A stretch of 64,000 nt of DNA, from assembly GCF_025628885.1 (NCBI RefSeq), contig NZ_JAOTIF010000018.1, forward strand, positions 1 through 64,000. Direction: 5' to 3'. Shown piece after piece: positions 5,066 through 63,960 of this stretch. This DNA is from Paraflavisolibacter caeni (lineage in GTDB: Bacteria; Bacteroidota; Bacteroidia; Chitinophagales; Chitinophagaceae). The notes under the pieces were generated by a model. That model worked only from the letters and a program-made list of their open reading frames with translations, was not told where the DNA came from and did no database searches. How positions within the stretch are numbered: position 1 is the stretch's first letter; every line of letters begins with the position of its first letter. The position numbers and the translations under genes were made by a program.

Positions 5066-5137
5066 TTTTAGGTTATTGAATTCTTTACCGGGGGATGGCA
5101 ACCGTGTTCTTGCCTACAGATTGAATAACATTTATCC

Positions 5138-5443: not shown

Positions 5444-5482
5444 GTCTGAAATTTTATAGTTTGTTATTGATGATTGATTGTT

Positions 5483-6751: not shown

Positions 6752-6778
6752 AAGCAGTTTTTTTAATTAGTTAATTCC

Positions 6779-8179: not shown

Positions 8180-8214
8180 TGACGAACGATTTTAATATTC
8201 GATTGTATACTTCC

Positions 8215-9540: not shown

Positions 9541-9562
9541 GCCTTTGTGTTTTATGTGGGGG

Positions 9563-10945: not shown

Positions 10946-10968
10946 AAAATTTTCTTCTTTTTGATGAT

Positions 10969-12585: not shown

Positions 12586-12601
12586 AAATAGTTAGTTTAA
12601 A

Positions 12602-12967: not shown

Positions 12968-13001
12968 GCGCTTTTTGTTTTATTCAATGAATGATTACCT
13001 G

Positions 13002-13364: not shown

Positions 13365-13409
13365 GATATTATTTCTGTTTGTATTTAGTAATGGGGTTGA
13401 TATCATTCA

Positions 13410-14303
<894 letters not shown>

Positions 14304-37316: not shown

Positions 37317-37362
37317 AAGTAGTAGTTATGGTTTATAGTTGTGGGGGTTTAGGAGGTGGACT

Positions 37363-38010: not shown

Positions 38011-38030
38011 AGTTTATAGCTTATAAGGGG

Positions 38031-43967: not shown

Positions 43968-45821
43968 CTAATTTTTCCTCTGAGGAGAAATCCTGTATAG
44001 ACCGGCGCCATGGCGTCTGATGTAAGGGGCAAATTCATTGCTGAATACACCTATTTTTTTTCCGGTCCAGAGATCTTTTACTGTGCATGCTGAGTTGAAG
44101 CCCAGTTCTTTTAACTGCACGGCTATTTGAGCAGAGTCGGCAGGCATAGGACCGGAGGGATTTTGGGTAAAGACCATGAATTGTAAGGTTGCACCTGCAT
44201 TTTGTACAGCACCTGCCTTGTCCAATCCTGCCATGGCTTTAAAACGGGTATATCCTTCCGGGATATCGAATTCGATTACTGAGTTGGAGTGCGTACCGAT
44301 GCCGCTTTCATATTTCTGGTCATTCACGACCAGGTCACTGCCGGATACACCTTTGTTCATCCTGGCTCTTCCCCATCCTGCTGTGGCTTTGGTCCACTTG
44401 AGGGATGTCAGGGCAAGAGAGTCACTGCCCTTATACAATGTAGGTGTGATCCAGTCGGCATGGTCCCAATCGATATTGTCACCTGCGTCACTTACAGCCA
44501 GGTACAATTTCTTTGCCCCAGTGATATCCACATCCACCATCTTACTACCACCTGGTGTTTCCCTGTTGATCAGACCACTGGACCATACGGCTTTATCTGC
44601 TACCATTTCCTGTTGATCCTGTGCATTGAACAATGCCAGGTATTTATCGCCGGTTTTGGGATCATCAGCTACCCATGCTACCAGGTCATTGTTGTTGAAT
44701 AATTCTTTGTTATTGCGGCTATACTTCAATACATCTAAAACATCTTTATTAGTGAGCAGTGATAAGGTAAAAGGATCGTTATCAGGTAAATGACCGCCAA
44801 ACATTAAGGGCGAACGGAAGATAGACCATAGCGTCATGAGGGTGTATTGCTCGTCTTTTGAGAAAGCGCTCATGCGGTCATTGCCCCTTTCTGCGCGGAT
44901 ACCAATGTGTCCCAGCGGCAACATATCGCCATCAGGCCATGCTCCTTCCATTCTGTACGAATTCCAGCGTTTGAATACTGCAAAGTGCTCTTTGAGCTGC
45001 TGCCAGCTGTCCCAGAAGTCACCTACCGTGCGCCACATGTTAGCGTTTTGCTGTACATGATCGGCATGGTCTATGGGCGTTTCACCAGGCGAAGTGCTCA
45101 ATAGGATTTTGCGGCCTGTGCGGTCAATAGCTTTGCGGATCATCTCCACTTCGCCCTGGTGGTAAATGGGAGAGGAAAGGTCGTCCACTTTCACAAAGTC
45201 CAAGCCCCAGGAAGCATAGAGTTCAAATAAAGAATTGTAATATTCCTGTGCCCCTTCCATGCCCGCAACGACGGTGTACATATCATGCAACCAGCGGCAC
45301 TGGTCTTTTTCGGAGTACACGTCTTTTGCTGTGGCCTTGCTGCCTTTGATGGGCAGGTTGCGTTTAACGGCCTCTACAGGTATACCCCGCATGATGTGAA
45401 TTCCAAACTTTAGCCCTTTACTATGGATGTAATCAGCCAGTGGTTTAAAGCCTTTGCCACCTGCAGCCGATGGGAAGCGATTTTCAGCTGGTGTAAACCT
45501 GCCATATTCGTCGATAGCATATTGCGGATCTTTCTCATTATAACCATGCGCCTTGTCATTGGCAACATACCAGCGAATGTCTACGATTATATAGTTCCAA
45601 CCATAAGGCTTGAGGTATTTCGACATGTAGTCGGCATTGGCTTTTACTTCACTTTCTACGACAGTCGGCCCGAAGCAGTCCCAGCTATTCCAACCCAATG
45701 GAGGCGTGGCTGCCCACTGGTGAAAATTAGATTTAGAAACAGATGTTTGGGCATGAACAGATCCCACAAAACTTCCGAGGAATAATGAAGCAATGAACAA
45801 TCGTTTTGATAAAAAATTCAT
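43968..45821 (-). CDS. GH27 alpha-galactosidase-type enzyme with NPCBM domain
   Basis: The 617-residue protein has a signal peptide (about 1-25), a GH27 (beta/alpha)8 domain with TPPLGWNSWDCFG (39-51), the nucleophile region DFVKVDDLSS (Asp213) and WRTVGDFWDSW. A C-terminal NPCBM/CBM51-like module spans about 465-600 (KYESGIGTHSNSVIEF). GH27 enzymes remove terminal alpha-galactose and, in some, alpha-GalNAc or beta-arabinopyranose. It is the last gene of the operon, 153 nt after the GH28/GH92 fusion. Substrate specificity is not certain. Confidence 0.9.
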   Translation of the reverse strand: MNFLSKRLFIASLFLGSFVGSVHAQTSVSKSNFHQWAATPPLGWNSWDCFGPTVVESEVKANADYMSKYLKPYGWNYIIVDIRWYVANDKAHGYNEKDPQYAIDEYGRFTPAENRFPSAAGGKGFKPLADYIHSKGLKFGIHIMRGIPVEAVKRNLPIKGSKATAKDVYSEKDQCRWLHDMYTVVAGMEGAQEYYNSLFELYASWGLDFVKVDDLSSPIYHQGEVEMIRKAIDRTGRKILLSTSPGETPIDHADHVQQNANMWRTVGDFWDSWQQLKEHFAVFKRWNSYRMEGAWPDGDMLPLGHIGIRAERGNDRMSAFSKDEQYTLMTLWSIFRSPLMFGGHLPDNDPFTLSLLTNKDVLDVLKYSRNNKELFNNNDLVAWVADDPKTGDKYLALFNAQDQQEMVADKAVWSSGLINRETPGGSKMVDVDITGAKKLYLAVSDAGDNIDWDHADWITPTLYKGSDSLALTSLKWTKATAGWGRARMNKGVSGSDLVVNDQKYESGIGTHSNSVIEFDIPEGYTRFKAMAGLDKAGAVQNAGATLQFMVFTQNPSGPMPADSAQIAVQLKELGFNSACTVKDLWTGKKIGVFSNEFAPYIRRHGAGLYRISPQRKN

Positions 45822-45974
45822 TTTCTATCGTAATTAATTTAATGAATGGTGCGTTGATTTTATACTAGTTGAATCCCTGCTATAAACAGTTCACAACCAA
45901 TAAATGTACAAATTACAATTTATTTTTTATCAACAACGCTACAAGTGCTACAAAACCATGCTGGCAATATTCAG

Positions 45975-48900
45975 TTATGGCCGACCCCAGGAAGAAGAAG
46001 GCGTCGATTGTAAATAGATCTCAAGCTTACCACCTTTCATGATGTCCTTATACTGGAAAAAACTTTTCGTATATGGTTTCCCATTCCAGTTCACCTTTTC
46101 TATATAAATAGCATCCGGGGATTTTTTATTACATACGATCTCCAATTTTTTATTACCGACTAAGGCTAAGGTAATTTTATCAAAGACCGGTGAACAAATT
46201 GCAAAAGCCCCGCTAACAGGATCTACAGGATAAAAGCCTAATGCTGCAAAAACATACCAAGCACTCATTTGTCCTGCATCATCATTTCCACTCAAGCCAC
46301 CTGGTCCATCACTGTATTCTTCAGCCAATATATTTCGAACTGCCTTTTGTGTTTTCCATGGCGAGGCGGTATAATTATACATGAATGGGATTTGATGCCC
46401 CGGTTCATTTCCATGCCAGTATTCATTCTTTTGAAATAAGCTGTCCAAAGCATTTTCCAATGCCTTTGGTCCGCCCATTAAATCAGAGAGCCCCTTAACA
46501 TCATGGGGAACATAAAAAGTATACTGCCTTGGAGTACCTTCTGTTATATAAGGTTCGCGGTGATCGGGCAAATAGGGATCATACCATTTACCTGTGGCAT
46601 ACCTTCCTCTGACCATACCAACAGAACGGTCAAAAACATTACGGTAATTAGTTGCTCTTTTTTGCAATGCTTTATAATCATTCAATTTTCCCAGGCCTTT
46701 TGCTACAATAGACAAAGCATAATCATCATAAGCATATTCCAGGGTCCGGCTTACCTGTTCTTTTTTATGAAATGCTTCCTGCACACTATCTTCCATGGGA
46801 ATGTAACCATACTTCAAATAAGAAGTCAAGGCCCTGCGTCCCTTGCCATTGATATAATCTTCCTTTGGAGCTATATTAAATGCGTTCTGGCGCATTAACC
46901 TGTAAGCTTCTTCAACATCATAATTACGAATACCTTTAGCATAAGCGGATGCAATAAATGCAGTAACATGATCTCCAATCATCGCAGCAGTATAACTATT
47001 CCAACATGGGAATATAGGTAGCCATCCACCTTGCTGCCCTTTTAAGACCATCGATTGAACAAAGTTGTTCACTAAGGATGGTTGTAGCATTTCAAGCAAT
47101 GGTAATTGAGCCCGGTAGGTATCCCACATGGAAAAATCATCATAATAATTCCCATTGGTCGCTCTCTTTAATTCATAATTGCCGGAAAACTTTGGATACA
47201 CACCATCCACATCACTAAAAAGCCTGGGGTGCTGCATGGCATGATACATTGCAGTGTAGAAGATGCGTTTGTCTTTGTCATTGCTCGTTTCTACGCTGAT
47301 TTGTCCTAGAGCTTTTTCCCATTTGTCTTTTGCCGAAGCAAGTACCGATTCAAAATCCCATACCGGTATTTCCTGCTGTAAATTTCTTTTGGCTCCTTCA
47401 AGACTACTGAATGATGTACCAATTCGTATTCTCAGTTGTTCTCCCTTATTCAATTGAAAGCCAACAAATGCGCCAATGTCTTTTTGCTTGCTGATGCTGT
47501 CAGCATTGATCATACCAGAAGCATTGAAGACACCACTTGAACCTATCCTTTTCTCAAATTGGATGAAAAAGTATCCACTAAAACCGGCAGGTTCTCCCCA
47601 TCCCTGGTAGATACGATGAACAGGATTATATCCCCAGACTTCACCCTTCTCTTTATCAAACTTTACAAAGCCGACCTGTTCATCACTATTCGGCCTTATC
47701 AGCAGGAATAGGCTATCGCTTTCCTGCATGGTAAACTGCATCAAACCACACCTTTCAGTTGCTGTCATCTCTACTGCAAGATGAGGAAGATCTAACTTAT
47801 AGTAGGCAGGTGTAGTGATCTCATTCTTATGGGAGAAAGGAACAGCATATTCGGCAGCATTTGTTTTTAGTTTACCGGTAACAGGCATGATGGTAAAGCT
47901 TCCATAATCCTGGGTACAAGAGCCGCTCAGCCAGTGTGTACCACGAAAGCCAGTGAGCATGCTATCTTTAAAGAAATAAGGAGGAATACACTTTGTTTCT
48001 GTCAACCGTGTTTCAGGTGCCCATTGCGTCATGGCAAAAGGTAGCCCCACTGCAGGGATGGTATTCGCATTGTGTTCTGTTCCTTCACCATGTTTCAATG
48101 CAGCAGGAGTCGTACTTGCAGCAGTACCAGATAGAGGTTGCACATATTGTAAATTTTGCTGCTTCTGATCAACAGGTAACCTTAACTTTTGAAGCGAATG
48201 ATCTGAAACTTTATTGAGCACAATAACCGGGATCTTTGATGAAGGAATCTCCAGGTCTACCAACGCCAGTTTTTTCACATCATCAAAAATCATAGCGGCA
48301 CGGTAGTCATCTTCTTTACTTGTGAGTTTAATGTTTTTCATTTTAAGACCTTCAACATGCCGAATAAAAAATCCCCAGGCTGGCAACTCTCCAAACATAG
48401 AGAATTCCGGATAATCTTTTTCTGCTTCAGTTACCATATGAAGTGAATCAAGAGGAATATAATTTACCTCTTTTTTACCTCCACCTACATAAGTGATATT
48501 GATATTCTCTAACAATATATTTTGTACAGGGTGACCGGGTAAACCACTGATAGAGGAAGGAAATACATTGTGCTTATAGATGATTGCATTAGGATCTTTA
48601 TAAGAATGGTTCCAGGGAGAAACGCTGATCAGCTTATTTTGGTCAGGTACAATACCCGGAGGGTATCTCAGCAGAGGCCCTTCCATTTCATAGCCAGCAT
48701 CTGGTTTACCTGCAGGCACTTCTACAGTTACATCTTTTATGACTATATTTTGAATTCCAGAATATGTTGTATCCTTATTCCGGTGCGCTGACCTTATAAA
48801 TATAGCATTACCTGTATTCTTAGCCTTTACGCCCTGGATGTCTATGTTTTCAAGAAACCCGCCGTCAACAGCTTCCAGTGCAATGGCAGAACGATAAGTG

Positions 48901-49742
48901 TCATATATTTCAAGATTTCTAACCTTGATGTTTTTAAAGCCGCCCTTTGAACTAGTGCCTAATTTAAAAGCGTTGGCACTTGAACGCAGCTTACAGTTTT
49001 CAACATAAATGCTTTCACAAAAATCATTTGCGTTTACTGACTTTAAACAAATTGCATCATCTGCAGAATTGATGGAAGAATTGGTAATCTTTACATTTTT
49101 ACAATCAACAATATCAAGCCCATCATTGTTCCAGTAGGCCATACTTTCCAATTTAATGCCATCGATCAATATATTTCGGCAACGCTCAAAATGTGTCACC
49201 CAGTTTGTAGCATCTTTAAAGAAAACGCCAACAATTTTCACATTCGTACATTCTTCCAAATAAAGAAGATTCGTCCGGGTGCCTTCACCTGGCCGCTTTA
49301 CTTTCCATTCCTTGTCAACCAGTGTCCCTTCCTCCAAACGTTTAAAAATATCCTTCATCAGTTCACGACCCTTGCCATCAATGATACCATTACCTGTTAT
49401 AGAAATATCATGTTGCTTTACTGCGATGATCAATGACGGATGTTTCACCTTTTCATAATCAATACGTTTATCGCTTCCCTGAATAACCGCGCCATCTTGC
49501 AAATGAAGACGAACACCGGATTTCAATTCTATGGAACCAGTTACAAATACTCCTTTTGGTACAACAACCATCCCGCCACCACTTTTTGAAGCGTCATCAA
49601 TGGCTTTCTGTATGGCTTGTGCATTGTTTGTTTTACCATCAGCTTTAGCGCCATAACTGACAATATTGAACTGCTTCTGTTGCGCGCATACAGATGCACT
49701 AAAGAAAAATAAGAAGGTTAGAGAGGTCAATAAAGATTGCAT
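45975..49742 (-). CDS. GH28-GH92 fusion glycosidase
   Basis: The 1255-residue protein has a signal peptide (about 1-20). The first half is a GH28 beta-helix (about 22-530) with NNDGLDIVD, NSADDAICLK and AFKLGTSSK motifs. The second half is a GH92 domain (about 535-1255), starting at YVQPLSGTAASTTP and ending with GGLSGNDDAGQMSAWYVF, where the Asp pair is the catalytic base of GH92. GH28 enzymes hydrolyse alpha-galacturonosyl links, GH92 alpha-mannosyl links. There is no stop or frame change at the join, so the fusion is real. It lies 22 nt after the separate GH92 gene. Confidence 0.9.
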   Translation of the reverse strand: MQSLLTSLTFLFFFSASVCAQQKQFNIVSYGAKADGKTNNAQAIQKAIDDASKSGGGMVVVPKGVFVTGSIELKSGVRLHLQDGAVIQGSDKRIDYEKVKHPSLIIAVKQHDISITGNGIIDGKGRELMKDIFKRLEEGTLVDKEWKVKRPGEGTRTNLLYLEECTNVKIVGVFFKDATNWVTHFERCRNILIDGIKLESMAYWNNDGLDIVDCKNVKITNSSINSADDAICLKSVNANDFCESIYVENCKLRSSANAFKLGTSSKGGFKNIKVRNLEIYDTYRSAIALEAVDGGFLENIDIQGVKAKNTGNAIFIRSAHRNKDTTYSGIQNIVIKDVTVEVPAGKPDAGYEMEGPLLRYPPGIVPDQNKLISVSPWNHSYKDPNAIIYKHNVFPSSISGLPGHPVQNILLENINITYVGGGKKEVNYIPLDSLHMVTEAEKDYPEFSMFGELPAWGFFIRHVEGLKMKNIKLTSKEDDYRAAMIFDDVKKLALVDLEIPSSKIPVIVLNKVSDHSLQKLRLPVDQKQQNLQYVQPLSGTAASTTPAALKHGEGTEHNANTIPAVGLPFAMTQWAPETRLTETKCIPPYFFKDSMLTGFRGTHWLSGSCTQDYGSFTIMPVTGKLKTNAAEYAVPFSHKNEITTPAYYKLDLPHLAVEMTATERCGLMQFTMQESDSLFLLIRPNSDEQVGFVKFDKEKGEVWGYNPVHRIYQGWGEPAGFSGYFFIQFEKRIGSSGVFNASGMINADSISKQKDIGAFVGFQLNKGEQLRIRIGTSFSSLEGAKRNLQQEIPVWDFESVLASAKDKWEKALGQISVETSNDKDKRIFYTAMYHAMQHPRLFSDVDGVYPKFSGNYELKRATNGNYYDDFSMWDTYRAQLPLLEMLQPSLVNNFVQSMVLKGQQGGWLPIFPCWNSYTAAMIGDHVTAFIASAYAKGIRNYDVEEAYRLMRQNAFNIAPKEDYINGKGRRALTSYLKYGYIPMEDSVQEAFHKKEQVSRTLEYAYDDYALSIVAKGLGKLNDYKALQKRATNYRNVFDRSVGMVRGRYATGKWYDPYLPDHREPYITEGTPRQYTFYVPHDVKGLSDLMGGPKALENALDSLFQKNEYWHGNEPGHQIPFMYNYTASPWKTQKAVRNILAEEYSDGPGGLSGNDDAGQMSAWYVFAALGFYPVDPVSGAFAICSPVFDKITLALVGNKKLEIVCNKKSPDAIYIEKVNWNGKPYTKSFFQYKDIMKGGKLEIYLQSTPSSSWGRP

Positions 49743-49764
49743 GTGCCTTGATTAAATATAATCC

Positions 49765-52062
49765 CTATTTGCTAGTTGATAATGATGGAGGCAACATCGT
49801 TCTTCCCCATGATGAAGGTTTATCACCCATTTCTAAAACCAATTCTCCGCCCGCAGTTATGTCTTCATGTTCAATCCAGGATTGCTGAAAGGGTTTTCCA
49901 TTCAGCGTTGCTGATTGAATGTACATATTTTTAGCTGACAACCGGGGCGCCTTAATAACAAAGTCCTTTCCATGCTCCTGGTGGATCACGGTTCTTTTAA
50001 AAGCAGGTGCGTTGATAAGGTAATAAGATTGGCCGGCATTTGGATAAATGCCTATTGAATGAAAGAGCAACCAGGAAGACATAGCGCCACTATCATCATT
50101 TCCAGGTATGCCGCTTCGTGAAGCATTGTAATGCTTGTTAATGATTTGCCAGATCCTTTCACTACTCAAATCAGGCCTTCCAATCCAGTGATATAAATTG
50201 GGCGTAAGAAAAGAAGGTTCGTTGCCCACATTATAATAACCATTATTAAATAAGGTATTCAGGCGTTTTTCAAAAGCAGCTTTCCCTCCGCATTTCTCTA
50301 TCAGGGTTGCCACATCATGGGGTACATAAAAAGAATATTCCCAACTGCTTGCCTCATAAAAAAAGCCACACCACCAGCAAACACAGATGGGCCAGTCCTG
50401 CGCCAGGGGCGTATATTTTACATATGTGGCACGGCCATTACTTACATCGCATTGAATGCTGTCGATCCATTTGCCTGAAGCATCTTTTGGCATGATAAAG
50501 CCAGAGCTTCCATTGTCTTCAATAGGACGCCATAGATTTTGCCAGTTATTTGATTGTTTGATGAACCGGAAGTATTCACCATTTCTTCCCAGCCCTTTAG
50601 CGACCATGGCCAGGCAATAATCGTTATAGGCATATTCCAAGGTGCGGTTGCCAGCACGCACAAAGTTGTTGCTGACATAACCCAGCGTATTATAATCTGT
50701 TAAACCACCCCTGCCCTCCTGCTCTTCATTGCCGCCAGGAGGTACGGTGGCATCTTTCAACATAGCTTCCAATCCCAGATAATAGTTTATACCCTTCAAT
50801 TTCTTCACATAAGCATCGGCAATCAATACCTCGGCATTAGAACCTCCTTGTGTTCTGCCATTCGAGTTACCGCTCCTGGCATCAGGCATATATCCTGCAC
50901 GCTGGTAAATTTGCAAAAGGGCGTTCACAATATCAACCTCGCGGGATGTATTGATCAACGTAATCAGGGGATTTGAAGAACGGAAGGTATCCCAGATCGC
51001 ATAAAAATCGTCGTAGTAGGGGCCATTGTTTTCCCAGAGCGGATTTTCACCAGTTCTATCAACCGGCATGAGCATCGTATGGTAAAGGGCCGTATAAAAC
51101 ATTTTCTTTTGGTCGCTGGAAGCATCCTCGTCTATTTCTATTCTCGACAATAAATTCTCCCATAAGGCTTGTGATGCTGCCAATGTTTTTTCAAACTGCC
51201 AGTGTGGAATTTCAGTTGAGATATTTTTCTTTGCTTTTAATGGACTGATGTAGGAAATACCAATTTTCATTTCTACCTGCTTCCCTTGCATAGAATGGAA
51301 AAACAGAAGTGCACCTGTCTTTTTCCCTTCATCCATCTGCACCTTTTCACCGCTCACCAGTTGGTCATCCTTCCAGGTTTTAAAATGTGAAAATGGCTGG
51401 CTAAAAATGGCATGAAAATAAACCGTATATGTTGCGCCGTTGTTCCATCCTCCACGTATTTTGCTATACCCCTTTACTTCGGTTTCTGAAACGATTTCAA
51501 TTTCCGAACCCACAAACTGTTGCGCCTCCCTTGCATTAGGTACAGGGTTTTCGCCGAGGAAGTGGCCCGCATCAATCTTTATCCCATTGTTATCGTTATT
51601 GGCAAATGAGAAACGGTAATAGGCAACTTTGGGTGAGGTCGTAATTTCTGTTTTGATATTCCATTTACTCAGCAGCACACTATAGTAAGCAGCCTTTGCC
51701 ACTTCATTACTTCTTAATGATTCATGCTTTATATTTCCCGTATCTCCGGAAAAAGGCATCACAGAAATATTCCCATATTTTGGCCCTCCTCCTGTTCCGC
51801 TTACGTGCACCTGGCTAAAGCCATATATTGCTTTGTCTTTGTCAGCAGAATAACCACTATTAGACGCTTTGTTATTATCAGGTCCGGGTTTTACCATTCC
51901 GAACGGGCAAGAAGGCCCGATAAATACATTACCTTCTCCTTCAGAACCAATGAAAGGATCAACATACTGGTGATGTTGGGCTTGCAAAACAGCACTGAAA
52001 AACACACAACACAGAATGAATATTGCCTTGATATTATTTTCTCGCTTTTGTATTTGTATCAT
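49765..52062 (-). CDS. GH92 alpha-mannosidase
   Basis: The 765-residue protein has a signal peptide (about 1-28). It shows the GH92 marks YVDPFIGSEGEGNVFIGPS, WDTFRSSNPL, EYSFYVPHDVATLI and IPGNDDSGAMSSWLLFHSIG. The GNDD Asp pair supplies the base. GH92 enzymes are calcium-dependent exo-alpha-mannosidases, with alpha-1,2 most common. It belongs to the operon, with 24 and 22 nt spacing on either side. It is only distantly similar to the GH92 half of the fusion, so the two probably act on different links. Confidence 0.94.
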   Translation of the reverse strand: MIQIQKRENNIKAIFILCCVFFSAVLQAQHHQYVDPFIGSEGEGNVFIGPSCPFGMVKPGPDNNKASNSGYSADKDKAIYGFSQVHVSGTGGGPKYGNISVMPFSGDTGNIKHESLRSNEVAKAAYYSVLLSKWNIKTEITTSPKVAYYRFSFANNDNNGIKIDAGHFLGENPVPNAREAQQFVGSEIEIVSETEVKGYSKIRGGWNNGATYTVYFHAIFSQPFSHFKTWKDDQLVSGEKVQMDEGKKTGALLFFHSMQGKQVEMKIGISYISPLKAKKNISTEIPHWQFEKTLAASQALWENLLSRIEIDEDASSDQKKMFYTALYHTMLMPVDRTGENPLWENNGPYYDDFYAIWDTFRSSNPLITLINTSREVDIVNALLQIYQRAGYMPDARSGNSNGRTQGGSNAEVLIADAYVKKLKGINYYLGLEAMLKDATVPPGGNEEQEGRGGLTDYNTLGYVSNNFVRAGNRTLEYAYNDYCLAMVAKGLGRNGEYFRFIKQSNNWQNLWRPIEDNGSSGFIMPKDASGKWIDSIQCDVSNGRATYVKYTPLAQDWPICVCWWCGFFYEASSWEYSFYVPHDVATLIEKCGGKAAFEKRLNTLFNNGYYNVGNEPSFLTPNLYHWIGRPDLSSERIWQIINKHYNASRSGIPGNDDSGAMSSWLLFHSIGIYPNAGQSYYLINAPAFKRTVIHQEHGKDFVIKAPRLSAKNMYIQSATLNGKPFQQSWIEHEDITAGGELVLEMGDKPSSWGRTMLPPSLSTSK

Positions 52063-52086
52063 TATTTCGATCTATAGCTTATGGAA

Positions 52087-53571: not shown

Positions 53572-53597
53572 TTTTCTTCTGCTGATTTATAAGATGA

Positions 53598-55826: not shown

Positions 55827-56989
55827 ACCTTCAAAAACCATTTTTTTCGATACAAAAAATATAAGAGTGCCATTTGCACCAGTACGATGCCGATGGCCAG
55901 CCAGAAGGGTTGCCATTTTACATCAGTAAATTTAATCAAACCACCAAACAGGTAGCTGGCCGTAGCTTCAAAATTGATAAGGCCATGCGCTGCCACATAG
56001 ATGAGGATTGAGTTCATTCCTATCCATACCAGCGGCATGCTCCATTTTTTCCAACCGGCTACGTCAATAACAAAATAAAAAAGCGATAAAAACAATGCAC
56101 TCCACCCACCGGCGCATAAAACAAACGAGCTCGTCCACATTGTTTTATTGATCGGGAAAACAATGTTCCAAACCCAACCCGCAGCCAGCAATATCAACCC
56201 GGCTATAGCCAGTACGGCTGCTTTTTTTGCTTCGTTCCACTGGGTTTGACGCCAGCGCAAAAACTCTCCGGCAAACACGCCCAGCATGGCCGATCCTATG
56301 GCAGGAATAGTAGAGAGCAATCCTTCCGGGTCGTACACTTTGCGGTGCAGCTTGCCCGGCAGCAGTAAGCGGTCTATATAAGCTGCAAGGTTCCCTTCAG
56401 GCGTTAAATTCCCGGCTCCAAACTGCGGTACCGGAATCAGCATCATGGCTGCCCAATAACCAAGGAGCAAACCGGCAAACCAGAGTACCTGTTGCTTCAG
56501 GTTGCTATTCAAATAAATCACGGCTGCGAAAAAACAAGACAGAGCAATGCGCCCCAGCACGGATGCAATCCTTGTGTTTTCATAACCCTGCCATTTGAAA
56601 AGACCATTCACTACCATGCCTAAAAAAATCAAAATAAGAGTGCGTTTGATCAACGCCCCATATATTTTTTTCTTACTGCTACCTTTCTCTAATTGACTGC
56701 TGAAAGAAAATGGCATGGAAACGCCGGCAATGAAAATAAAGAGCGGGAAAATCAGGTCGTAAAAGGTAAACCCATTCCAGGGAGAGTGTGAGAGTTGGTG
56801 CGACATCCAGTTGGCTGCTGGTGCATGAGTGGCGTCAGCAAGGCTGTGCACCACTATTTCGCCACTCATGATCCAGAACATATCAAAGCCCCGTAAAGCA
56901 TCCAGCGATTGCAGACGTACAGGCCTTTTGCCCGGGCTTGCTGTAACAGTTTCGCTGCTAACTACCTTTTTGTTTGCTGTTATTTGCAT
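55823..56989 (-). CDS. HGSNAT-like (heparan-alpha-glucosaminide N-acetyltransferase) membrane protein
   Basis: The 388-residue protein has about ten membrane segments. It starts LQSLDALRGFDMFWIMSGE, then a loop with HQLSHSPWNGFTFYDLIFP and a second-half WIGMNSILIYVAAHG segment, as in DUF5009/HGSNAT proteins. In animal lysosomes HGSNAT uses acetyl-CoA from the cytosol to acetylate terminal alpha-glucosamine, which NAGLU then removes. Here the NAGLU homologue is the very next gene, in a 4-nt overlap. The start at 56989 overlaps the phosphatase by 32 nt. Confidence 0.85.
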   Translation of the reverse strand: MQITANKKVVSSETVTASPGKRPVRLQSLDALRGFDMFWIMSGEIVVHSLADATHAPAANWMSHQLSHSPWNGFTFYDLIFPLFIFIAGVSMPFSFSSQLEKGSSKKKIYGALIKRTLILIFLGMVVNGLFKWQGYENTRIASVLGRIALSCFFAAVIYLNSNLKQQVLWFAGLLLGYWAAMMLIPVPQFGAGNLTPEGNLAAYIDRLLLPGKLHRKVYDPEGLLSTIPAIGSAMLGVFAGEFLRWRQTQWNEAKKAAVLAIAGLILLAAGWVWNIVFPINKTMWTSSFVLCAGGWSALFLSLFYFVIDVAGWKKWSMPLVWIGMNSILIYVAAHGLINFEATASYLFGGLIKFTDVKWQPFWLAIGIVLVQMALLYFLYRKKWFLKV

Positions 56990-57986
56990 TTGTAGCTATA
57001 CTATTTGGTTGTTTATCAATAGTTGTTTTATAGAAAACCTTCCCTGTTTCATCTATCACTTGCATCAATAATTGACTTCCGGTAACAGAAAACAACATGA
57101 ATCCATATGTTGATGCTGCTAACTTACTTTCGGGCAATAATACAGATGGTGTTTTCTCGGATGCCGCTCCTGAAATAAAATGATGAGTTTTTCCTGCGGG
57201 CACGATGTGTTGCAAACTATGTTCGTGTCCTGCAAGGTACACATCTACACCGTATTTATCCAAGACAGGCTTTAAAGTGTTGCGGATCGCTTTCGTATCA
57301 TAAGCATCTGTCCTGCTGCCACCGGTGAACATCGGATGATGCCCCACCACAATCTTCCAACGGATATTTTTTGATGGATTACCCAAGACGCTCTCTAACC
57401 ATTTCTTTTGTGCAGTAGAATCCTGGTTACGCACGTTTGGACCATATTCCGCATTTTTATAAAACTCAGGAATAAATGGATTGGTATCGATAAATGCGAT
57501 CAATACCTGTTGTGTTGTATCGCCGTTGATCGCAAAGGTTTTGGAATAGTAGCGTGCAGGCATCTTCCAGCGACGGCTGATTTTTGAATAGGCTACCTGT
57601 GCATCAGGATTTGATTTGTAATCGTGATTACCTAAGACAGGGTACCAATCCCATTGCAGAGAAAAAGCTGTATAAACATCTTCAAATGAATATTTAAACA
57701 AAGGGTCCTGTTCACTGATCACACCACTGGGATAAAAATTATCTCCAGCAGCAATAATGAAATTGGCATTCACTTCGGCTGCTGTTTTTCCCATTTGTGC
57801 AGCCACTTCTTTTTGATGGTCGGCACCATTTCTTCCCCAATCTCCCATGGCAAGAAAGTTCAGGGCCCCACCCTTCCTTACCAACACCGTATCACCCGGC
57901 TTATTTTGAGCACTTTCACTAATACGCACTTGTGCCTGCACGGGGATGAATCTCACTAAGAACAAAAAAACCAGGATCTTTTTCAT
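56958..57986 (-). CDS. Secreted purple acid phosphatase-type metallophosphoesterase
   Basis: The 342-residue protein has a signal peptide (about 1-18). It shows the metal-site motifs of purple (tartrate-resistant type) acid phosphatases: MGDWG, AAGDNFYPSG, LGNHDYK, VVGHHP and AGHEHS. It would remove phosphate from phosphomonoesters outside the cytoplasm. It lies after SusD across a hairpin and overlaps the next gene by 32 nt, so it is part of the operon. Confidence 0.9.
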   Translation of the reverse strand: MKKILVFLFLVRFIPVQAQVRISESAQNKPGDTVLVRKGGALNFLAMGDWGRNGADHQKEVAAQMGKTAAEVNANFIIAAGDNFYPSGVISEQDPLFKYSFEDVYTAFSLQWDWYPVLGNHDYKSNPDAQVAYSKISRRWKMPARYYSKTFAINGDTTQQVLIAFIDTNPFIPEFYKNAEYGPNVRNQDSTAQKKWLESVLGNPSKNIRWKIVVGHHPMFTGGSRTDAYDTKAIRNTLKPVLDKYGVDVYLAGHEHSLQHIVPAGKTHHFISGAASEKTPSVLLPESKLAASTYGFMLFSVTGSQLLMQVIDETGKVFYKTTIDKQPNSIATNANNSKQKGS

Positions 57987-58020
57987 TTTAATAACTGTGT
58001 TTAAAAGTATTTTTCTCTTA

Positions 58021-58054
58021 AATAAATATCAGGGCTTTAGCCCTGATATTTATT
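58021..58054. terminator. Perfect 16-bp hairpin between SusD and the phosphatase
   Basis: Bases 58021-58036 and 58039-58054 are perfect inverted repeats with only TT between. It lies 33 nt before the phosphatase ATG and 23 nt after the SusD stop. No T-run follows on the minus strand, so it may stabilise the SusCD mRNA or cause partial termination, lowering enzyme expression relative to SusCD. Confidence 0.65.
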
Positions 58055-58077
58055 ACCAAACTTATGAGCGCTTCTCT

Positions 58078-59694
58078 TTATTCATAGCCCGGATTTTGCA
58101 CCAGAGCAGGGTTAACTGCCATAGCACCTGTCGGGATCGGGAAGATGCGCCTATGGGGACTTGCATCTGTTTTATAGCCCCAAGAGCCTTCGTATTTGCC
58201 AAAGCGAATCATGTCGTTGCGATGCCATGCTTCCCAGGCAAATTCACGGTTTCTTTCCGCATAAAGATCATCCAATGTAACAGCTGATAAAGCTGGAGAG
58301 GTAGTACGGTTTGACCTTACCATATTCACCAGTGAAACAGGAGTGTGTCCATTGGTTGCTGTTCCGCCGCGAAGAATCGCTTCCGCCTTCATTAAAATAA
58401 TATCAGAATAACGCAGGAAAGGAACATCATTGCTCTGGTTCCTGGACGTAGAGAGACTGTCAGGATAAAACTTAACGTTGCGATAGCCCTGGTTCCAGGC
58501 TAGTTCATCATTCCCCAGGTCAAAAGCAGACACGCTTTGACGCAATTGAATATTAGGCGTTAAAGTTACCTGGTAAGTATAAGAAGCACTACCGTCGGAA
58601 CCAGTATAAAACTGATCGTAGCCTTTCTTGGTAGTAGTTACGTTCACCGGTGTTCCATTGTAATTGACCTGAGCTCCAGTCAGCCATTGCTGATTCCTGA
58701 TGTCATTGGGATCATTGAAATTAGCATAGAACTCTGGCAGGGTGCTACGAGCGGCGCTAGGCGTAAACGGTAAAGTAAAGCGGTTGCGCATAGATCTTGG
58801 TACATCGTAGCGTGCATGATACATAAACCCATTGGTTCCTGGCAATGCTGTAAAAGCCGGGTCATAAGGAATAGCAAAAATGAACTCCTTCATTTGAGGC
58901 CCATTGTTGGGATAGAACATCTTCAGGTAACTGCTTCTTGGCTCAACAGCATACAGTCCAGACTTCATTACACTATCACAAGCTGCAATACAATCATTGT
59001 AGCGCTGCGTACCGGTGTACACTTCCGCATTCAGATACATCTTAGCTAAAAGAGCAAATGCTGTGTATTTATTTGCGCGGCCATAAGTAGCGGAGCCGGA
59101 AGCAGCACTTAACTGAGGAAGACTAGCTTTTACTTCGCTTTCTATGAAGTTGAAAACTTCTTTCCGTGGTGAATTGGCTTTGGGCTCGAAATCACCATAG
59201 GTAGTTACAATGGGAACATTGCCATACAGATCCATCATCATAAAGTAAGCAATGGCACGCACCATTTTTAACTCAGACAGGGTTGTTTGCTTACTGGCAT
59301 CTGCAGGCATGGTTTTGTCTAAAATGGACATAGCCTGGTTCGTAGTCCCGATCACAACCGAAAGCCAGTTCCAGGTGCCGTTCGTATTACCGTTGTCCCT
59401 GGTCCAATTGTGATAATGCAGGTTGATGTAGTTCTGGTTATCATACCAGTTTCCACCCCTGGCAGGCAAAATGGCTTCATCGGTGCTTAGCGATTGCAAG
59501 AACCAGTAGTCTAATGAATAGTTGCCTCTTAAAGCGGCATATGCCGGTCCAGTGGCCTGGGTAAACTGCGATGGATTTTGAGGAAATACCTCAGGAGTCA
59601 ATTCCGTTTTGATCGGAACTTCAGTCTTGTGACAGGATGCCAACAAACAAATGAGCATCGCCGGTAAGCATAAGTTGTTCAATATCTTTTTCAT
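58078..59694 (-). CDS. SusD/RagB-family surface glycan-binding lipoprotein
   Basis: The 538-residue protein has a lipoprotein signal with lipobox LLASC (Cys at about 21). It shows typical SusD features: helical TPR-like scaffold (LKMVRAIAYFMMMDLYGNVP), DVPFLRYSDIILMKAEAIL and YAERNREFAWEAWHRNDMIRF. It binds the glycan and forms the lid on the SusC channel. It follows SusC by 23 nt. The sugar specificity cannot be read from sequence. Confidence 0.95.
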   Translation of the reverse strand: MKKILNNLCLPAMLICLLASCHKTEVPIKTELTPEVFPQNPSQFTQATGPAYAALRGNYSLDYWFLQSLSTDEAILPARGGNWYDNQNYINLHYHNWTRDNGNTNGTWNWLSVVIGTTNQAMSILDKTMPADASKQTTLSELKMVRAIAYFMMMDLYGNVPIVTTYGDFEPKANSPRKEVFNFIESEVKASLPQLSAASGSATYGRANKYTAFALLAKMYLNAEVYTGTQRYNDCIAACDSVMKSGLYAVEPRSSYLKMFYPNNGPQMKEFIFAIPYDPAFTALPGTNGFMYHARYDVPRSMRNRFTLPFTPSAARSTLPEFYANFNDPNDIRNQQWLTGAQVNYNGTPVNVTTTKKGYDQFYTGSDGSASYTYQVTLTPNIQLRQSVSAFDLGNDELAWNQGYRNVKFYPDSLSTSRNQSNDVPFLRYSDIILMKAEAILRGGTATNGHTPVSLVNMVRSNRTTSPALSAVTLDDLYAERNREFAWEAWHRNDMIRFGKYEGSWGYKTDASPHRRIFPIPTGAMAVNPALVQNPGYE

Positions 59695-59717
59695 TGAAAT
59701 ATTATTTTTTCCAGAGT

Positions 59718-62700
59718 TTAGAAAGAAGCGTTTACACCGAATAAAATGGTTCTTGTTTTGGGATAGAAGTTACCCGCATCAATACCAGGAGCAATACCAC
59801 CCTGATTTACTTCAGGATCGATGCCATTGTACTTGGTAATGATAAACGCATTGTTCACAGATGCATACACACGTAACGTTCTTACATACTGACTGAACTT
59901 CTTAAAGTTGTAGCCCAATGTAGCATTATCCAAACGAACATAACTACCATCTTCAATAAAGCGGCTCGAATAACGGTAAGAATTTACATCCGTAACAGAT
60001 TCGGCTGCGACATCTTTTAAGATATTTGTGAATTGTGCTGTGCTAGGCCTGAACAGATCTGCACGGGTAGCATTGAAGATCTTATTGCCAAACACGCCTC
60101 TGAAGAATATATTTAAATCAAAATTATTATAGCGGAATGTATTGGTAAAGCCCAGTAACAACTTCGGCTGCGGGCTGCCTACATAGAAATAGTCGCTTCC
60201 AATTGCTGGCGAAGTTGTCAGTTTACCATTCTTATCATAATATTGAGAAACACCCTGGTCGTTTTTGCCGGCATACTTCAAAGTAAAGAACTGACCCAAT
60301 GGACGTCCTGACTTTAAGATCTGCAAGGTGCTACCAGTTTGGCCACCACCTTCCGGTTGCGTCAAACGAACAGAGTCGCCACCAGAGAATAAAGGATTGG
60401 TTAAGCTGGTAATTTCGTTGTTGTTATTTGCCAGATTCAGCGTAGATGTCCAACTAAATGCCTTTGTCTTTACAGGCGTAGCACTTAACATCAATTCAAT
60501 CCCTTTATTGTTCATGCTACCGCCGTTGGCAGTGATATTGCCATTGGGAACCAACATAGGATCCACCTTGTAACCGTAGATCATACCGGTCGTGTTTTTA
60601 TCATATACATCGATCGATCCATTTAATTTTCCATTCAGGATGGCAAAGTCCAAACCGATGTTGGCAGTAGCTGTTTTCTCCCATTGCAAATTCGGGTTGT
60701 CAGCCTGCGTAGGTCCATAAGCATTCACTGTTGTACCTTGATAATAGAAGCTTCCTAAAGTACCCGAAATAATTTGAGCGGTATAAGCATTAAAGCCTGA
60801 AGAATTACCTGTAACCCCATAGCTGGCTCTCAGTTTCAGATCGCTAAACAGCTTCTGGTCCTGCATAAAATCCTCCTGGCTGATACGCCATGCTGCACCG
60901 GCAGAAGGAAAATAACCCCATTGCTTATTAGCACCAAAAACTGAGCTACCGTCTCTTCTACCAGAAAGTTGTACAAGGTATTTATCCTTGTAGTTGTAAT
61001 TCAAACGGGCAAAGTCTGAGATCAATCTTGTTTCCTGGTAAACACCAGGTGATCCAAAGTTGATGCGGTAAGTAGGAATCGCATATGGGTTACTTAATGA
61101 CAGGTTGTTATAGCCTACGTTATCAACAGGGAAGTTGGTAGCGGTAGTTTGAAAACCTTCACCGGTAACATTATCCTGATAAGAGTATCCCAACACTGCG
61201 TTTAGGGTGTGCCCACCAAACTTCTTATCCCAGGTAAGGAATGTTTCCATTATCTTATTGGTGTTCTGGTAGGTATTTCTCAATGCAGAACCATTGGTAC
61301 CAAAATTCAACAGGGAATGTACCAGTGGCGGATCGGGCTGATAATAAAAGTTGGCGCTGTTGTAATTAGAGTAATAACTACCGTAATACTCGCCATGCAG
61401 GCTATTACCTTGCTGATACGCCAGGTTGAAATCGTATGTCAGGCCAAACGGCAGTTTCACCTGCGTATTAAAGCTTCCGATCAGGTTATTGAACTTTGTA
61501 TTATCCTGTCCGTATTCAATGAGTGCAGCAGGATTGAAATAACCGGTTTTCGTAAAGTTTTCAAAAAACTTTCCGTCAGGATTTTTAACAGGAGAAACAG
61601 GCAGGTAACTAACCATTTGCTGCAATACAGAGTTGCGTTGAGGCATGTTGTCTGCATTGCTGCGCGCATTGCTCACATTCAAACTGAAACGCACCTTATC
61701 ATTAAAAGCAAATTGCTCAATAGCTAACCTGGCAATCACCCTTTCCAATTCGCTTTTTAAAAGAATACCTTCTTTTTGTGTATAGTTCAAGCTTGCACTG
61801 TAGGTAGTGTGTTCACCACCGCCATTGAAGCTTAAGTTGTGGTTGTGAGAGGTAGCTGAAGACCTACGTACCTCTTTCTGCCAGTTGGTGTTCGCTCCTT
61901 TATCATCATTAGGTGATAACGACTGACCGTTGGCAGATATAAAGGCGCGTAATTCATCGGAATTCATCATCTCCAATTCATTCGATACCTGCTCCATACC
62001 AACATAACCGCTATAGCTTACCACCGACTGTCCTTTTTTTCCTCTTTTGGTTGTGACCATGATCACACCGTTGGCAGCACGGTTACCGTAAATAGCTGTA
62101 GCAGCAGCATCTTTCAATACATCGATAGAAGCAATATCATCAGGCGCGATAGCAGAGATATCAGCACCGGGAACTCCATCGATCACATAGAAAGGAGATT
62201 GTGAACTGTTTAAGGTAGAAGCACCACGCAACACCACAGCAGAAGGCCTGTTAGGGTCGCCGCTGGCAGAGATATTCAAGCCGGGGACTTTACCTTGTAA
62301 TAATTGTCCCACATCGGTAATAGCGCCACGGTTCAAATCTTCAGGCTTTACACTGGTAACGGCGCTTGATAAGTTTTTACGAGAGCTACGGCCGTAACCC
62401 ACCATTACTACCTCATTCAATTGAGCCACTTTTTCATTCAACACTACGGCCAGAATCTTACCAGCTGCCGCCGTAGCTTCCCTGGATTCAAAGTTGATGG
62501 CCGAAAAAGTGAGGGTAGCAGTTGGTGACGCCTTGATGGTGAAAGAACCGGTCTGATCGGTCAACACCGCTTTGTTGGTTCCTTTTACAGTAACGGTTAT
62601 GCCAACAGCAGGTTGTCCCTTGCTGTCGGTTACGGTTCCCTTTACTTCCTGCGTTCCCTGGGCGATGGCAGAGGTGAAGCCCGCTAAGAAAATGAGCATC

Positions 62701-62762
62701 AACAGCAAGGAAGGGCCTTTCCGATTGCTGCGTTTCATTAAAAGAGTCTTCTTTTCATACAT
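59718..62762 (-). CDS. SusC/RagA-family TonB-dependent outer-membrane transporter
   Basis: The 1014-residue protein has a signal peptide, a CarboxypepD_reg-like domain (about 38-120, VKGTVTDSKGQPAVGITVTVKG), and a plug domain (about 125-240) with LLQGKVPGLNISASG and VLRGASTLNSSQSPFYVIDG. A C-terminal beta-barrel follows. It imports oligosaccharides together with SusD using TonB energy. Start alternatives are Met1 (62762) or Met9 (62738), the latter giving a more usual signal peptide MKRSNRKG. It lies 59 nt after the inositol oxygenase gene. Confidence 0.95.
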   Translation of the reverse strand: MYEKKTLLMKRSNRKGPSLLLMLIFLAGFTSAIAQGTQEVKGTVTDSKGQPAVGITVTVKGTNKAVLTDQTGSFTIKASPTATLTFSAINFESREATAAAGKILAVVLNEKVAQLNEVVMVGYGRSSRKNLSSAVTSVKPEDLNRGAITDVGQLLQGKVPGLNISASGDPNRPSAVVLRGASTLNSSQSPFYVIDGVPGADISAIAPDDIASIDVLKDAAATAIYGNRAANGVIMVTTKRGKKGQSVVSYSGYVGMEQVSNELEMMNSDELRAFISANGQSLSPNDDKGANTNWQKEVRRSSATSHNHNLSFNGGGEHTTYSASLNYTQKEGILLKSELERVIARLAIEQFAFNDKVRFSLNVSNARSNADNMPQRNSVLQQMVSYLPVSPVKNPDGKFFENFTKTGYFNPAALIEYGQDNTKFNNLIGSFNTQVKLPFGLTYDFNLAYQQGNSLHGEYYGSYYSNYNSANFYYQPDPPLVHSLLNFGTNGSALRNTYQNTNKIMETFLTWDKKFGGHTLNAVLGYSYQDNVTGEGFQTTATNFPVDNVGYNNLSLSNPYAIPTYRINFGSPGVYQETRLISDFARLNYNYKDKYLVQLSGRRDGSSVFGANKQWGYFPSAGAAWRISQEDFMQDQKLFSDLKLRASYGVTGNSSGFNAYTAQIISGTLGSFYYQGTTVNAYGPTQADNPNLQWEKTATANIGLDFAILNGKLNGSIDVYDKNTTGMIYGYKVDPMLVPNGNITANGGSMNNKGIELMLSATPVKTKAFSWTSTLNLANNNNEITSLTNPLFSGGDSVRLTQPEGGGQTGSTLQILKSGRPLGQFFTLKYAGKNDQGVSQYYDKNGKLTTSPAIGSDYFYVGSPQPKLLLGFTNTFRYNNFDLNIFFRGVFGNKIFNATRADLFRPSTAQFTNILKDVAAESVTDVNSYRYSSRFIEDGSYVRLDNATLGYNFKKFSQYVRTLRVYASVNNAFIITKYNGIDPEVNQGGIAPGIDAGNFYPKTRTILFGVNASF

Positions 62763-62821
62763 ATGGCTGCGTTTTAACAGTTAGATGTTCGTTTTTAAAG
62801 TGGATCTATCAAAAAATTGGT

Positions 62822-63700
62822 TTAGAACCTCAGTGTTTTAGGCAAATATTTATTCACCAGTTCTTCATAATAAGGCTGTAGTTTATTCCAATCAGGAGGT
62901 GTAGGACTTTTTGAGTATAAGTCATAAGAGTTAAAAAGCCTTACCCACGCAAACATTTTGTGGTCATGCTCGTCCATCAAATGGTCATAAGCTCCCTCTC
63001 TGTGCTGGGCATAAAAAGAATGATAGCGGAGCATATACAGAGCCGGCTCGGGAAGATAATCCTTCATCATGGCATAGATATACTCATCATGCCCCCACGA
63101 CATATGAACATTACGCAGGCCACAATTGGGTGCATAAATGCCAAACTTTGTATTGTATTTCTCGTTTTCGAAATCAGGATTGTTTTTAAAGAACTCATGA
63201 TATACAATTTTGTCTGAATAGGCACATCCCACAGGGAAGGTATCACCTACTACTGCCCACTGCGGTTCACCAAACAAACAGAGCACCTTGCCCATGTCGT
63301 GCATTAAACCAGCAAGCACCATCCAGTCGGGATGACCATCGGCACGTACGGCTTCTGAAGTTTGCAAGAGGTGTTGAAACTGGCTTAAATCAGTATCAGG
63401 ATCTGAGTCATCAACCAATTGATTGAGGAAATCAAATGCTTCCCAAACGGTCATTACTTTCCTATCAAAACTTAAGAACTCCTCCCGCTTCTGCATCACA
63501 AAATCAAATGTCTGATACTGGTGGTTCAACTTGTAAAATTCACGAACCGAATCACGGGCAGGCGCTTCATAATTTCTGAAGGCCTCTACACTCTTTTCTT
63601 TGGCTATGGTACCAGGCTCCGGATACCGTCTCAGCAAGTCATCCTCCCATTCATCAAGACTCTGTAATGGAGAGAATTGAGATAATTCTTGTACACTCAT
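62822..63700 (-). CDS. myo-Inositol oxygenase (MIOX family)
   Basis: The 292-residue protein has the diiron HD-type motifs of MIOX: GHPDWMVLAGLMHDMGKVL with the HD pair, CGLRNVHMSWGHDEYIY, and YMLRYHSFYAQHREGAY with a His/Arg set. It has no signal peptide, so it is cytoplasmic. MIOX splits myo-inositol with O2 to D-glucuronate. It is the first gene of the operon and directly precedes SusC, so its substrate may arise from the glycan taken up. MIOX is rare in bacteria and is mostly eukaryotic. Confidence 0.93.
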   Translation of the reverse strand: MSVQELSQFSPLQSLDEWEDDLLRRYPEPGTIAKEKSVEAFRNYEAPARDSVREFYKLNHQYQTFDFVMQKREEFLSFDRKVMTVWEAFDFLNQLVDDSDPDTDLSQFQHLLQTSEAVRADGHPDWMVLAGLMHDMGKVLCLFGEPQWAVVGDTFPVGCAYSDKIVYHEFFKNNPDFENEKYNTKFGIYAPNCGLRNVHMSWGHDEYIYAMMKDYLPEPALYMLRYHSFYAQHREGAYDHLMDEHDHKMFAWVRLFNSYDLYSKSPTPPDWNKLQPYYEELVNKYLPKTLRF

Positions 63701-63944: not shown

Positions 63945-63960
63945 ACGAAAACGATTTCGT
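63945..63960. promoter_or_regulatory. LacI-type operator-like palindrome
   Basis: ACGAAAACGATTTCGT is symmetric around a central CG with 7 of 8 pairs matching, the usual shape of LacI-family operators. It lies about 245 bp before the inositol oxygenase start. The 63701-64000 interval has no gene and is otherwise AT-rich. Confidence 0.45.

Follow-up and report, generated by a model that had tools for sequence, protein, structure and literature searches.

A duplicated SusC/SusD operon with myo-inositol oxygenase in Paraflavisolibacter caeni, a candidate locus for the use of inositol-phosphate glycans

The window that we analyzed was a stretch of 64,000 bases (positions 1 to 64000) of a 148,902-base contig in the 7.01-Mb genome of Paraflavisolibacter caeni. 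The list of open reading frames (ORFs) and the Pfam and NCBIfam profiles indicated that ten consecutive minus-strand ORFs filled positions 43968 to 63700. From the first gene onward, they coded for a myo-inositol oxygenase (MIOX), a SusC transporter, a SusD lipoprotein, a purple acid phosphatase (PAP), a glucosamine N-acetyltransferase of the HGSNAT type, and glycosidases of families GH89, GH28, GH92, GH28-GH92 (a fusion protein), and GH27. The initial annotation had named these families and their tight spacing, and both were borne out: all ten genes were matched by profiles, and the spacing between genes ranged from -94 to 153 bp. The layout was that of a polysaccharide utilization locus (PUL). 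Specifically, the SusC and SusD genes adjoined, and the GH27, GH28, GH92, and GH89 genes lay in the same direction on the same strand. A divergent LacI gene beside a tandem copy of the operon, together with a palindrome shared by the two copies, pointed to a regulator; the regulation itself is a prediction.

The tandem copy lay directly upstream of the operon, outside the window, and the operon was the second half of the duplication (Table 1). The 14-bp palindrome CGAAAACGATTTCG preceded both MIOX genes, with its second copy at contig position 74691, and the 7,014,184 bases of the genome contained no third exact copy. Because the promoters were themselves duplicates, the shared palindrome supported, but did not prove, common control, and part of its identity may be a leftover of the duplication itself. 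A looser LacI-type pattern was also tried in the upstream locus (L003) and was rejected as no better than chance (18 found versus 14.1 expected).

Table 1. Features of the operon and of its tandem copy. Positions are those of the window, except that the positions marked L003 are those of locus L003.
Feature	Position	Strand	Remarks
MIOX (copy B), at the head of the operon	62822..63700	-	PF05153, 367 bits; upstream copy 80% identical
SusC/RagA TonB-dependent transporter	59718..62762	-	TIGR04056, 747 bits; upstream copy 85% identical
SusD surface glycan-binding lipoprotein	58078..59694	-	PF07980/PF14322; upstream copy 87% identical; lipobox-like N terminus in translation
PAP (TRAP type), probably secreted	56958..57986	-	PF00149; upstream copy 77% identical over 313 residues
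NagX/HGSNAT-type transmembrane glucosamine N-acetyltransferase	55823..56989	-	NF046061, 356 bits (cut-off of 480 not reached)
GH89/NAGLU alpha-N-acetylglucosaminidase	53598..55916	-	All three domains: PF05089/PF12972/PF12971
GH28 glycosidase, predicted uronidase	52087..53571	-	PF00295; best NCBIfam match PglB, 256 bits (600 needed)
GH92 alpha-mannosidase	49765..52062	-	PF07971/PF17678
GH28-GH92 fusion protein	45975..49742	-	PF00295 at 59-341, PF07971 at 783-1245
GH27 alpha-galactosidase with NPCBM domain	43968..45821	-	PF16499, PF08305, PF17801
Palindrome, likely LacI-family operator (predicted)	63946..63959		About 246 bp upstream of window MIOX
LacI gene, divergent from upstream cluster	L003 12757-13767
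Upstream MIOX	L003 11610-12488	-	80% identical to window copy
Upstream SusC	L003 8452-11496	-	85% identical to window copy
Upstream SusD	L003 6811-8427	-	87% identical to window copy
HEP, lyase-like protein	L003 4900-6699	-	599 aa
Upstream PAP	L003 3876-4856	-	77% identical to window copy
SSF sodium symporter	L003 2157-3782	-	Upstream cluster

The PAP of the operon matched the solved purple acid phosphatases 1QFC and 1QHW at 1e-37 in phmmer searches, and motifs that we take to be the metal ligands of MIOX and PAP were present in the window proteins. The HGSNAT-type protein was also below the cut-off for Pfam Acyl_transf_3. Its gene overlapped the GH89 gene by 94 bp; the true GH89 start is probably at 55826 (Met31), directly ahead of a signal-peptide-like stretch, and with this start the overlap would be only 4 bp. 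In the case of the window GH28 protein, the solved relatives were pectinases, including exo-acting ones, and other right-handed beta-helix enzymes. The PF12708 matches in the operon overlapped GH28 domains. Just downstream of the operon (30510 to 41375), the window contained large RHS-repeat-type proteins, one of 2268 aa with DUF6443 and one of 1114 aa in which the RHS repeat was borderline.

Our survey of the family Chitinophagaceae covered 394 genomes, 111 of which had MIOX over the cut-off. We analyzed 98 of the 116 over-cut-off MIOX places; the two in the window genome were read separately, and 16, mostly partial matches or short contigs, were left out. An operon was taken to be a run of genes sharing a strand and separated by no more than 400 bp, and one could be defined for 96 MIOX places. 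Loci L160 (which also had SusC, GH89, and HGSNAT) and L196 were excluded because their MIOX was missed by the ORF caller. Genes in relatives were labeled by similarity to proteins of the window and its genome, and the GH28-GH92 fusion query was split into domains before counting because the whole fusion mislabeled the GH92 proteins of relatives as fusions. Since the genomes are related, the statistics on co-occurrence are descriptive only.

SusC was present in 39 of the 96 MIOX operons (18 genera), and a divergent LacI gene accompanied 37 of the 39. These 39 operons also contained SusD (38), GH92 (19), SSF (17), GH28 (15), HEP (14), HGSNAT (13), PAP (11), and GH89 (6). In contrast, SSF was found in 17 and HGSNAT in one (L175) of the 57 MIOX operons without SusC, and GH92, GH28, HEP, PAP, and GH89 were found in none of them. 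At another locus without SusC (L194, genome G172), PAP, HGSNAT, and SSF lay just outside the 400-bp gap rule. Similar results were obtained when we counted by genus (18 with SusC versus 23 without, six genera being in both): PAP 6 versus 0, HGSNAT 9 versus 1, GH89 5 versus 0, GH92 8 versus 0, GH28 8 versus 0, and HEP 9 versus 0. At least one of these six enzymes was found in 29 of the 39 MIOX-SusC operons, at least two in 21, and at least four in ten.

As a control, two of the genomes supplied 18 further SusC loci. Seventeen were usable (L250 was dropped because its SusC frame was broken in ORF calling), and their operons held one GH92 and no PAP, HGSNAT, GH89, GH28, HEP, or SSF. Among 80 named MIOX loci, whose genomes partly overlapped the family survey, SusC or one of these enzymes was found in 19 MIOX operons. 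Two Pontibacter loci (L054 and L056) had MIOX, SusC, PAP, and HEP, with GH92 upstream in both and GH28 upstream in L054. The co-occurrence test that the initial annotation had proposed favored its reading, in that PAP, HGSNAT, GH89, GH92, and GH28 recurred with MIOX almost only where SusC was in the operon, and the recurrence of the set in other genomes indicated that the operon was not a chance assortment.

Two side observations were made on these MIOX loci. MIOX proteins that were 72 to 75% identical to that of the window occurred in Nostoc and also in a genome of the Nostocales, with a lichen cyanobiont among the sources (L047, L052, L058, L094, L103, L105, L106, L108, L109, and L113), and this likeness suggests that MIOX may have moved between phyla. 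In the Niastella/Longitalea genus, a constant four-gene run followed the MIOX-SusC operon (L145, L146, L147, L150, L158, L182, L200, L202, and L205); the proteins were of 213 to 255 aa and 317 to 330 aa, followed by two that resembled ProB and ProA by eye.

HEP, the lyase-like protein of the upstream cluster, had no match in Pfam or NCBIfam. When its sequence was searched against the PDB, phmmer gave no match, and a profile search gave five unrelated matches with E values of 0.18 or worse. An AlphaFold2 model made from 18 sequences (mean pLDDT of 79, pTM of 0.80, and 93 residues below 50) had a helical domain followed by a beta domain. When the model was compared to the PDB with Foldseek, ranks 1 to 42, many of which were repeated entries of the same proteins, were all uronic-acid polysaccharide lyases (acting on glycosaminoglycans, alginate, hyaluronate, xanthan, or heparan), with a TMq of 0.39 to 0.56 and identities of 8 to 13%; the rmsd values were 7 and above. 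The top match was a glycosaminoglycan lyase. The modeled fold suggested that HEP is a uronate-lyase-like protein, with a predicted activity of that kind, and possibly a new lyase family.

The initial annotation had regarded homologous operons that retain the other genes without MIOX, the phosphatase, and GH89 as evidence against a role in inositol-phosphate glycan use. We therefore queried the 394 genomes with HEP and PAP, independently of MIOX, and MIOX-less relatives were indeed found, five of which carried iol-type inositol genes. HEP gave 24 matches above 600 bits. Sixteen were within about 11 kb of MIOX, one (G294) was cut by contig ends, and the seven others were read. Four of these loci, in genomes G390 (L220), G084 (L223), and G161 (L225) and on contig C45 of the window genome, had SusC-SusD-HEP and then iol-type genes, with PAP between SusD and HEP in G390. 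The contig C45 locus (L221 12568-19899 and L222 1-11866) was a third transporter copy in the window genome, in which SusC-SusD-HEP-DUF4861-GH88 was followed by iol-type genes and an SSF symporter. By Pfam, L222 contained an FBP-type aldolase, KduI/IolB, a PfkB kinase, a TPP enzyme, an aldehyde dehydrogenase, a xylose-isomerase-like protein, and a Gfo/Idh/MocA dehydrogenase. The iol-type genes of the other loci were labeled by BLAST to the L222 set, and the iol names are our own assignment; the first five of the L222 genes were present in the stretches read of L223 and L225. In the fifth iol locus (L252, genome G072), PAP-GH89-GH28-GH92 adjoined IolJ, IolB, and IolC.

Genomes G390, G084, G161, and G072 had no MIOX match. 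Thus, four of the five iol loci were in MIOX-free genomes, which strengthened the inositol reading: a different inositol pathway stands in for MIOX while the glycan genes stay. The window genome itself has both inositol routes. Two of the remaining HEP loci showed SusC-SusD-HEP apart from MIOX-PAP-HGSNAT-SSF (G172) and LacI, SusC, SusD, PAP (in two frames), SSF, and HEP (G255). PAP gave 18 matches of at least 450 bits, of which 15 were within 20 kb of MIOX, two (G390 and G072) were with iol-type genes, and one (G294) was with HEP on a short contig. At three of the iol-linked loci (C45, L223, and L225), a GH88-family protein and DUF4861 lay beside HEP. A GH88-family protein was also encoded in the window (24173 to 25315), about 19 kb downstream of the operon, and could serve a lyase route.

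We ran 10 of the 54 unlabeled ORFs of the MIOX-SusC operons through Pfam, and the MIOX operons of relatives were found to add UxaC (L143), UxuA (L116), GH29 (L190 and L192), GH97 and a GH51-type arabinofuranosidase (L192), GH43 (L118), GH35 (L123), and GH2 (L180). The first 60 residues of an L180 protein were identical to those of the L116 UxuA, which suggests that L180 carries UxuA as well. UxaC was also present in the window genome; glucuronate, the product of MIOX, feeds the uronate (UxaC) pathway. When the enzymes of the MIOX-SusC operons other than SusD were scanned for a lipobox with a crude pattern, it was found in 2 of 20 GH92 proteins, in the only DUF4861 protein, and in none of the others. 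This scarcity would fit enzymes that act in the periplasm on a small glycan after its import.

Plant glycosyl-inositol-phospho-ceramides (GIPCs) make up as much as 40% of total plant sphingolipids, and their head groups contain inositol, phosphate, uronic acid, glucosamine or N-acetylglucosamine [GlcN(Ac)], mannose (Man), galactose (Gal), and arabinose (Ara), according to excerpts of PMC8099651. Glucuronic acid (GlcA) on inositol phosphorylceramide is described as plant specific, and both head-group transferases as GT64 proteins, one with an extra exostosin domain (PMC9113257, in excerpts). Excerpts of PMC11496612 state that plant wall extracts contain free inositol phosphate glycans and report a GIPC phospholipase C from Botrytis. 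Since soluble inositol phosphate glycans exist in plant material, the bacterium need not own a phospholipase. NagX, an HGSNAT-like protein, has been proposed to acetylate periplasmic glucosamine as human HGSNAT does, and HGSNAT acts on heparan sulfate (PMC9007349, in excerpts). Among the literature matches listed, which covered few subscription papers and no preprints, no title or abstract start named a bacterial GIPC catabolic pathway or a locus of this kind.

The gene content, the duplication, the shared palindrome, the recurrence of the set, and the replacement of MIOX by iol-type genes at five loci were all observed. Based on these observations, we consider it probable that the operon is half of a duplicated PUL, probably under LacI control, for inositol-phosphate glycans, and that soluble plant GIPC head groups are the most likely substrate. 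The substrate and its linkages, the order and cell location of the steps, and the function of the palindrome are predicted as follows. SusC and SusD would import the released oligosaccharide, and periplasmic GH27 and GH92 would strip alpha-Gal and alpha-Man. The NagX/HGSNAT protein would acetylate the exposed GlcN using cytosolic acetyl-CoA, and GH89 would then remove alpha-GlcNAc. The uronic acid would be removed by GH28 or by the HEP of the sister cluster, with a GH88-family hydrolase in some relatives. PAP would take off the phosphate, the SSF symporter would take up the inositol, and MIOX would oxidize it, yielding glucuronate that enters the uronate pathway through UxaC. As judged from the sequences, a fitting family appears to exist for every part of the GIPC head group (Gal/Ara, Man, GlcN(Ac), uronic acid, phosphate, and inositol), with the specificity of GH28 and HEP being predicted and arabinosidase families being found only in relatives. 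Operons with GH92 and GH28 and no GlcN enzymes would fit Man-GlcA heads, and those with HGSNAT or GH89 would fit GlcN(Ac)-GlcA heads.

More broadly, we lean toward the view that Chitinophagaceae and some relatives have an undescribed class of loci for the glycosyl-inositol-phosphate head groups of plant sphingolipids. Loci of this class would end in one of two interchangeable inositol modules, MIOX or iol, and would deal with the uronic acid either through GH28 or through a new lyase family whose product passes to a GH88-family hydrolase; free glucosamine would be handled by a bacterial counterpart of the HGSNAT-NAGLU pair. If this is true, GIPC turnover in soil and on roots would become testable through a defined, recurrent locus, and enzymes would be at hand for analyzing the structures of GIPC head groups, of which little is known so far.

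Several findings weigh against the GIPC interpretation. GH27 was outside the conserved core, as it was present in only 1 of the 39 MIOX-SusC operons (it was also near MIOX in L124 and L092). Ten of the 39 operons held none of the six enzymes, although some of these were cut by contig ends and L132 had HEP and PAP just past the gap rule. Only 7 of the 32 GH89 matches above 1030 bits were within 20 kb of MIOX, and four GH89 genes in one genus had no related neighbor within about 1.5 kb. Other GH89 genes were found with iol genes (G072), with SusC-SusD-PAP-HGSNAT-SSF (G023), and in an HGSNAT-GH89 pair elsewhere (G004), and lower GH89 matches also occurred near MIOX (G122, partial; G361; and G127). 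GH89 was rejected as a marker of the system because most of its relatives were not beside MIOX. The weaker PAP matches were mostly elsewhere, and those of G114 (61%), G185 (62%), G127 (55%), and G190 (a fragment, 65%) were not placed near MIOX or had unread surroundings.

The remaining points against the GIPC interpretation concerned HEP, the palindrome, and enzymes of the proposed pathway. The HEP locus of G077 had no inositol gene in the stretch read. Distant HEP relatives (35 to 39% identity; L228 9333 and L229 9248) lay beside GH28- or GH92-like and GH27-like genes, with no inositol genes seen, which indicated that the lyase-like family is wider than the inositol system. A degenerate form of the palindrome was found in the LacI-MIOX intergenic regions of only 3 of the 37 SusC operons with divergent LacI, in 0 of 15 other MIOX operons with LacI, and in 2 of 44 without LacI; because it was rare in relatives, we claim the palindrome for the window genome only. 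Activity on alpha-GlcA-inositol is not known for GH28. The GH88 proteins are compatible with pectin as well, given that one Pfam model takes in both GH88 and the GH105 pectin enzymes. PI-PLC-X (PF00388) was not found in the window genome in a search that had no positive-control match, and PF04185, the other phospholipase family searched, gave only partial matches there and no convincing phospholipase; the release of the head group from ceramide is thus unexplained.

Other substrates would account for parts of the gene set. The target could be an inositol-phosphate glycan without uronic acid, namely, a glycosylphosphatidylinositol (GPI)-anchor glycan or a fungal mannosyl-glucosaminyl-inositol phosphorylceramide, in which case GH92 would remove mannose, HGSNAT and GH89 would remove glucosamine, PAP and MIOX would use the inositol phosphate, and GH28 would do something else. 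GH92, HGSNAT, GH89, PAP, and MIOX fit such a target, and no uronate enzyme was seen at L194 (MIOX, PAP, HGSNAT, and SSF), whose genome has HEP on another contig, or at L151 (MIOX-SusC-SusD-HGSNAT-GH89-SSF). We regard this explanation as improbable, given that the GH28 and HEP of 15 and 14 of the 39 MIOX-SusC operons, respectively, the GH88-family protein beside HEP in three iol-linked loci, and the arabinosidase and fucosidase families of relatives would be unneeded for GPI. The uronate-lyase-like protein and the GH88-family protein point to a uronic acid next to inositol and favor plant GIPC over GPI. Of the two targets named in the initial annotation, which had proposed that the operon dismantles inositol-phosphate glycans, the first is therefore preferred, and the general proposal was supported at the genomic level by the co-occurrence data.

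Mixed scavenging from plant walls is likewise unlikely in our estimation. Here, GH28 would act on pectin, GH92 and GH89 would act on N-glycans or other glycans, and MIOX and PAP would independently use free inositol and phosphate esters. Pectinases make up most of family GH28, the solved relatives of the window protein included exo-acting pectinases, and the overlap of the GH88 model with GH105 would suit this idea. The SSF genes in 17 of the 57 MIOX operons without SusC would also suit it, in that free inositol use may be the basic role of MIOX. Nevertheless, the annotation of the ten operon genes and of ten accessory ORFs of relatives turned up neither pectate or pectin lyases nor pectin esterases. 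The enzymes recurred with MIOX or iol-type genes, and apart from a single GH92, they were missing from the control SusC operons. A very unlikely alternative is a glycosaminoglycan-like target such as heparosan or heparan, with HEP, HGSNAT, GH89, and GH88 acting on GlcNAc-alpha1,4-GlcA units and the inositol genes being incidental. NAGLU follows HGSNAT in heparan sulfate degradation, HGSNAT acts on that polymer (see above), and the top structural match of HEP was a glycosaminoglycan lyase. Against this, no sulfatase was seen among the annotated members of the operon, the upstream cluster, the C45 locus, and the ten accessory ORFs; MIOX or iol-type genes, SSF, and PAP were constant partners; and GH92 and GH28 would be left unexplained.

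The window also contained a nitrogenase set (3926 to 14297) that consisted of NifH, four nitrogenase-component-1-type proteins (which we assigned to D, K, E, and N from their order), a radical SAM protein resembling NifB, and a gene of the homocitrate synthase type. A molybdate transporter and a sigma-54 activator were encoded close by. Nitrogen fixation looks unusual in this bacterial group. Given this set, one may speculate that the host lives close to plants.

The GIPC locus that we propose can be compared to several known systems. The Botrytis GIPC phospholipase C (PMC11496612, in excerpts) likewise targets plant GIPC and releases inositol phosphate glycans; the fungal enzyme frees the head group, whereas this locus, in whose genome our limited searches (PF00388 and PF04185) found no such enzyme, would consume it. 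The NagX glucosamine pathway (PMC9007349, in excerpts) also uses an HGSNAT-like protein, which is proposed there to acetylate periplasmic glucosamine, whereas the protein described here scored under the NagX equivalog cut-off and shares its operons with GH89 and inositol genes. With the lysosomal heparan sulfate pair of HGSNAT and NAGLU, the locus would share the transmembrane acetylation of a terminal alpha-GlcN followed by the action of an alpha-N-acetylglucosaminidase; it differs in having a bacterial protein of NagX length, no sulfatases seen, and a coupling to inositol phosphate use. HEP shares a helical and a beta domain with heparinase/alginate-lyase-like uronate lyases (8khv, 6ljl, 8r71, and 4ojz; TMq of about 0.5), but it has no convincing sequence-level match to them and is genetically tied to inositol genes. 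Finally, the locus resembles the Sus-like PULs of Bacteroidetes in its SusC/SusD pair, its contiguous secreted glycosidases, and its dedicated regulator gene. It differs from them in its purple acid phosphatase and its MIOX or iol-type genes, in that nearly all of its enzymes lack a lipobox by the crude pattern, and in its predicted ligand; instead of a polysaccharide, this would be a small inositol glycan that carries phosphate and stems from a membrane lipid. Thus, it is apparently a kind of PUL with an undescribed substrate class.

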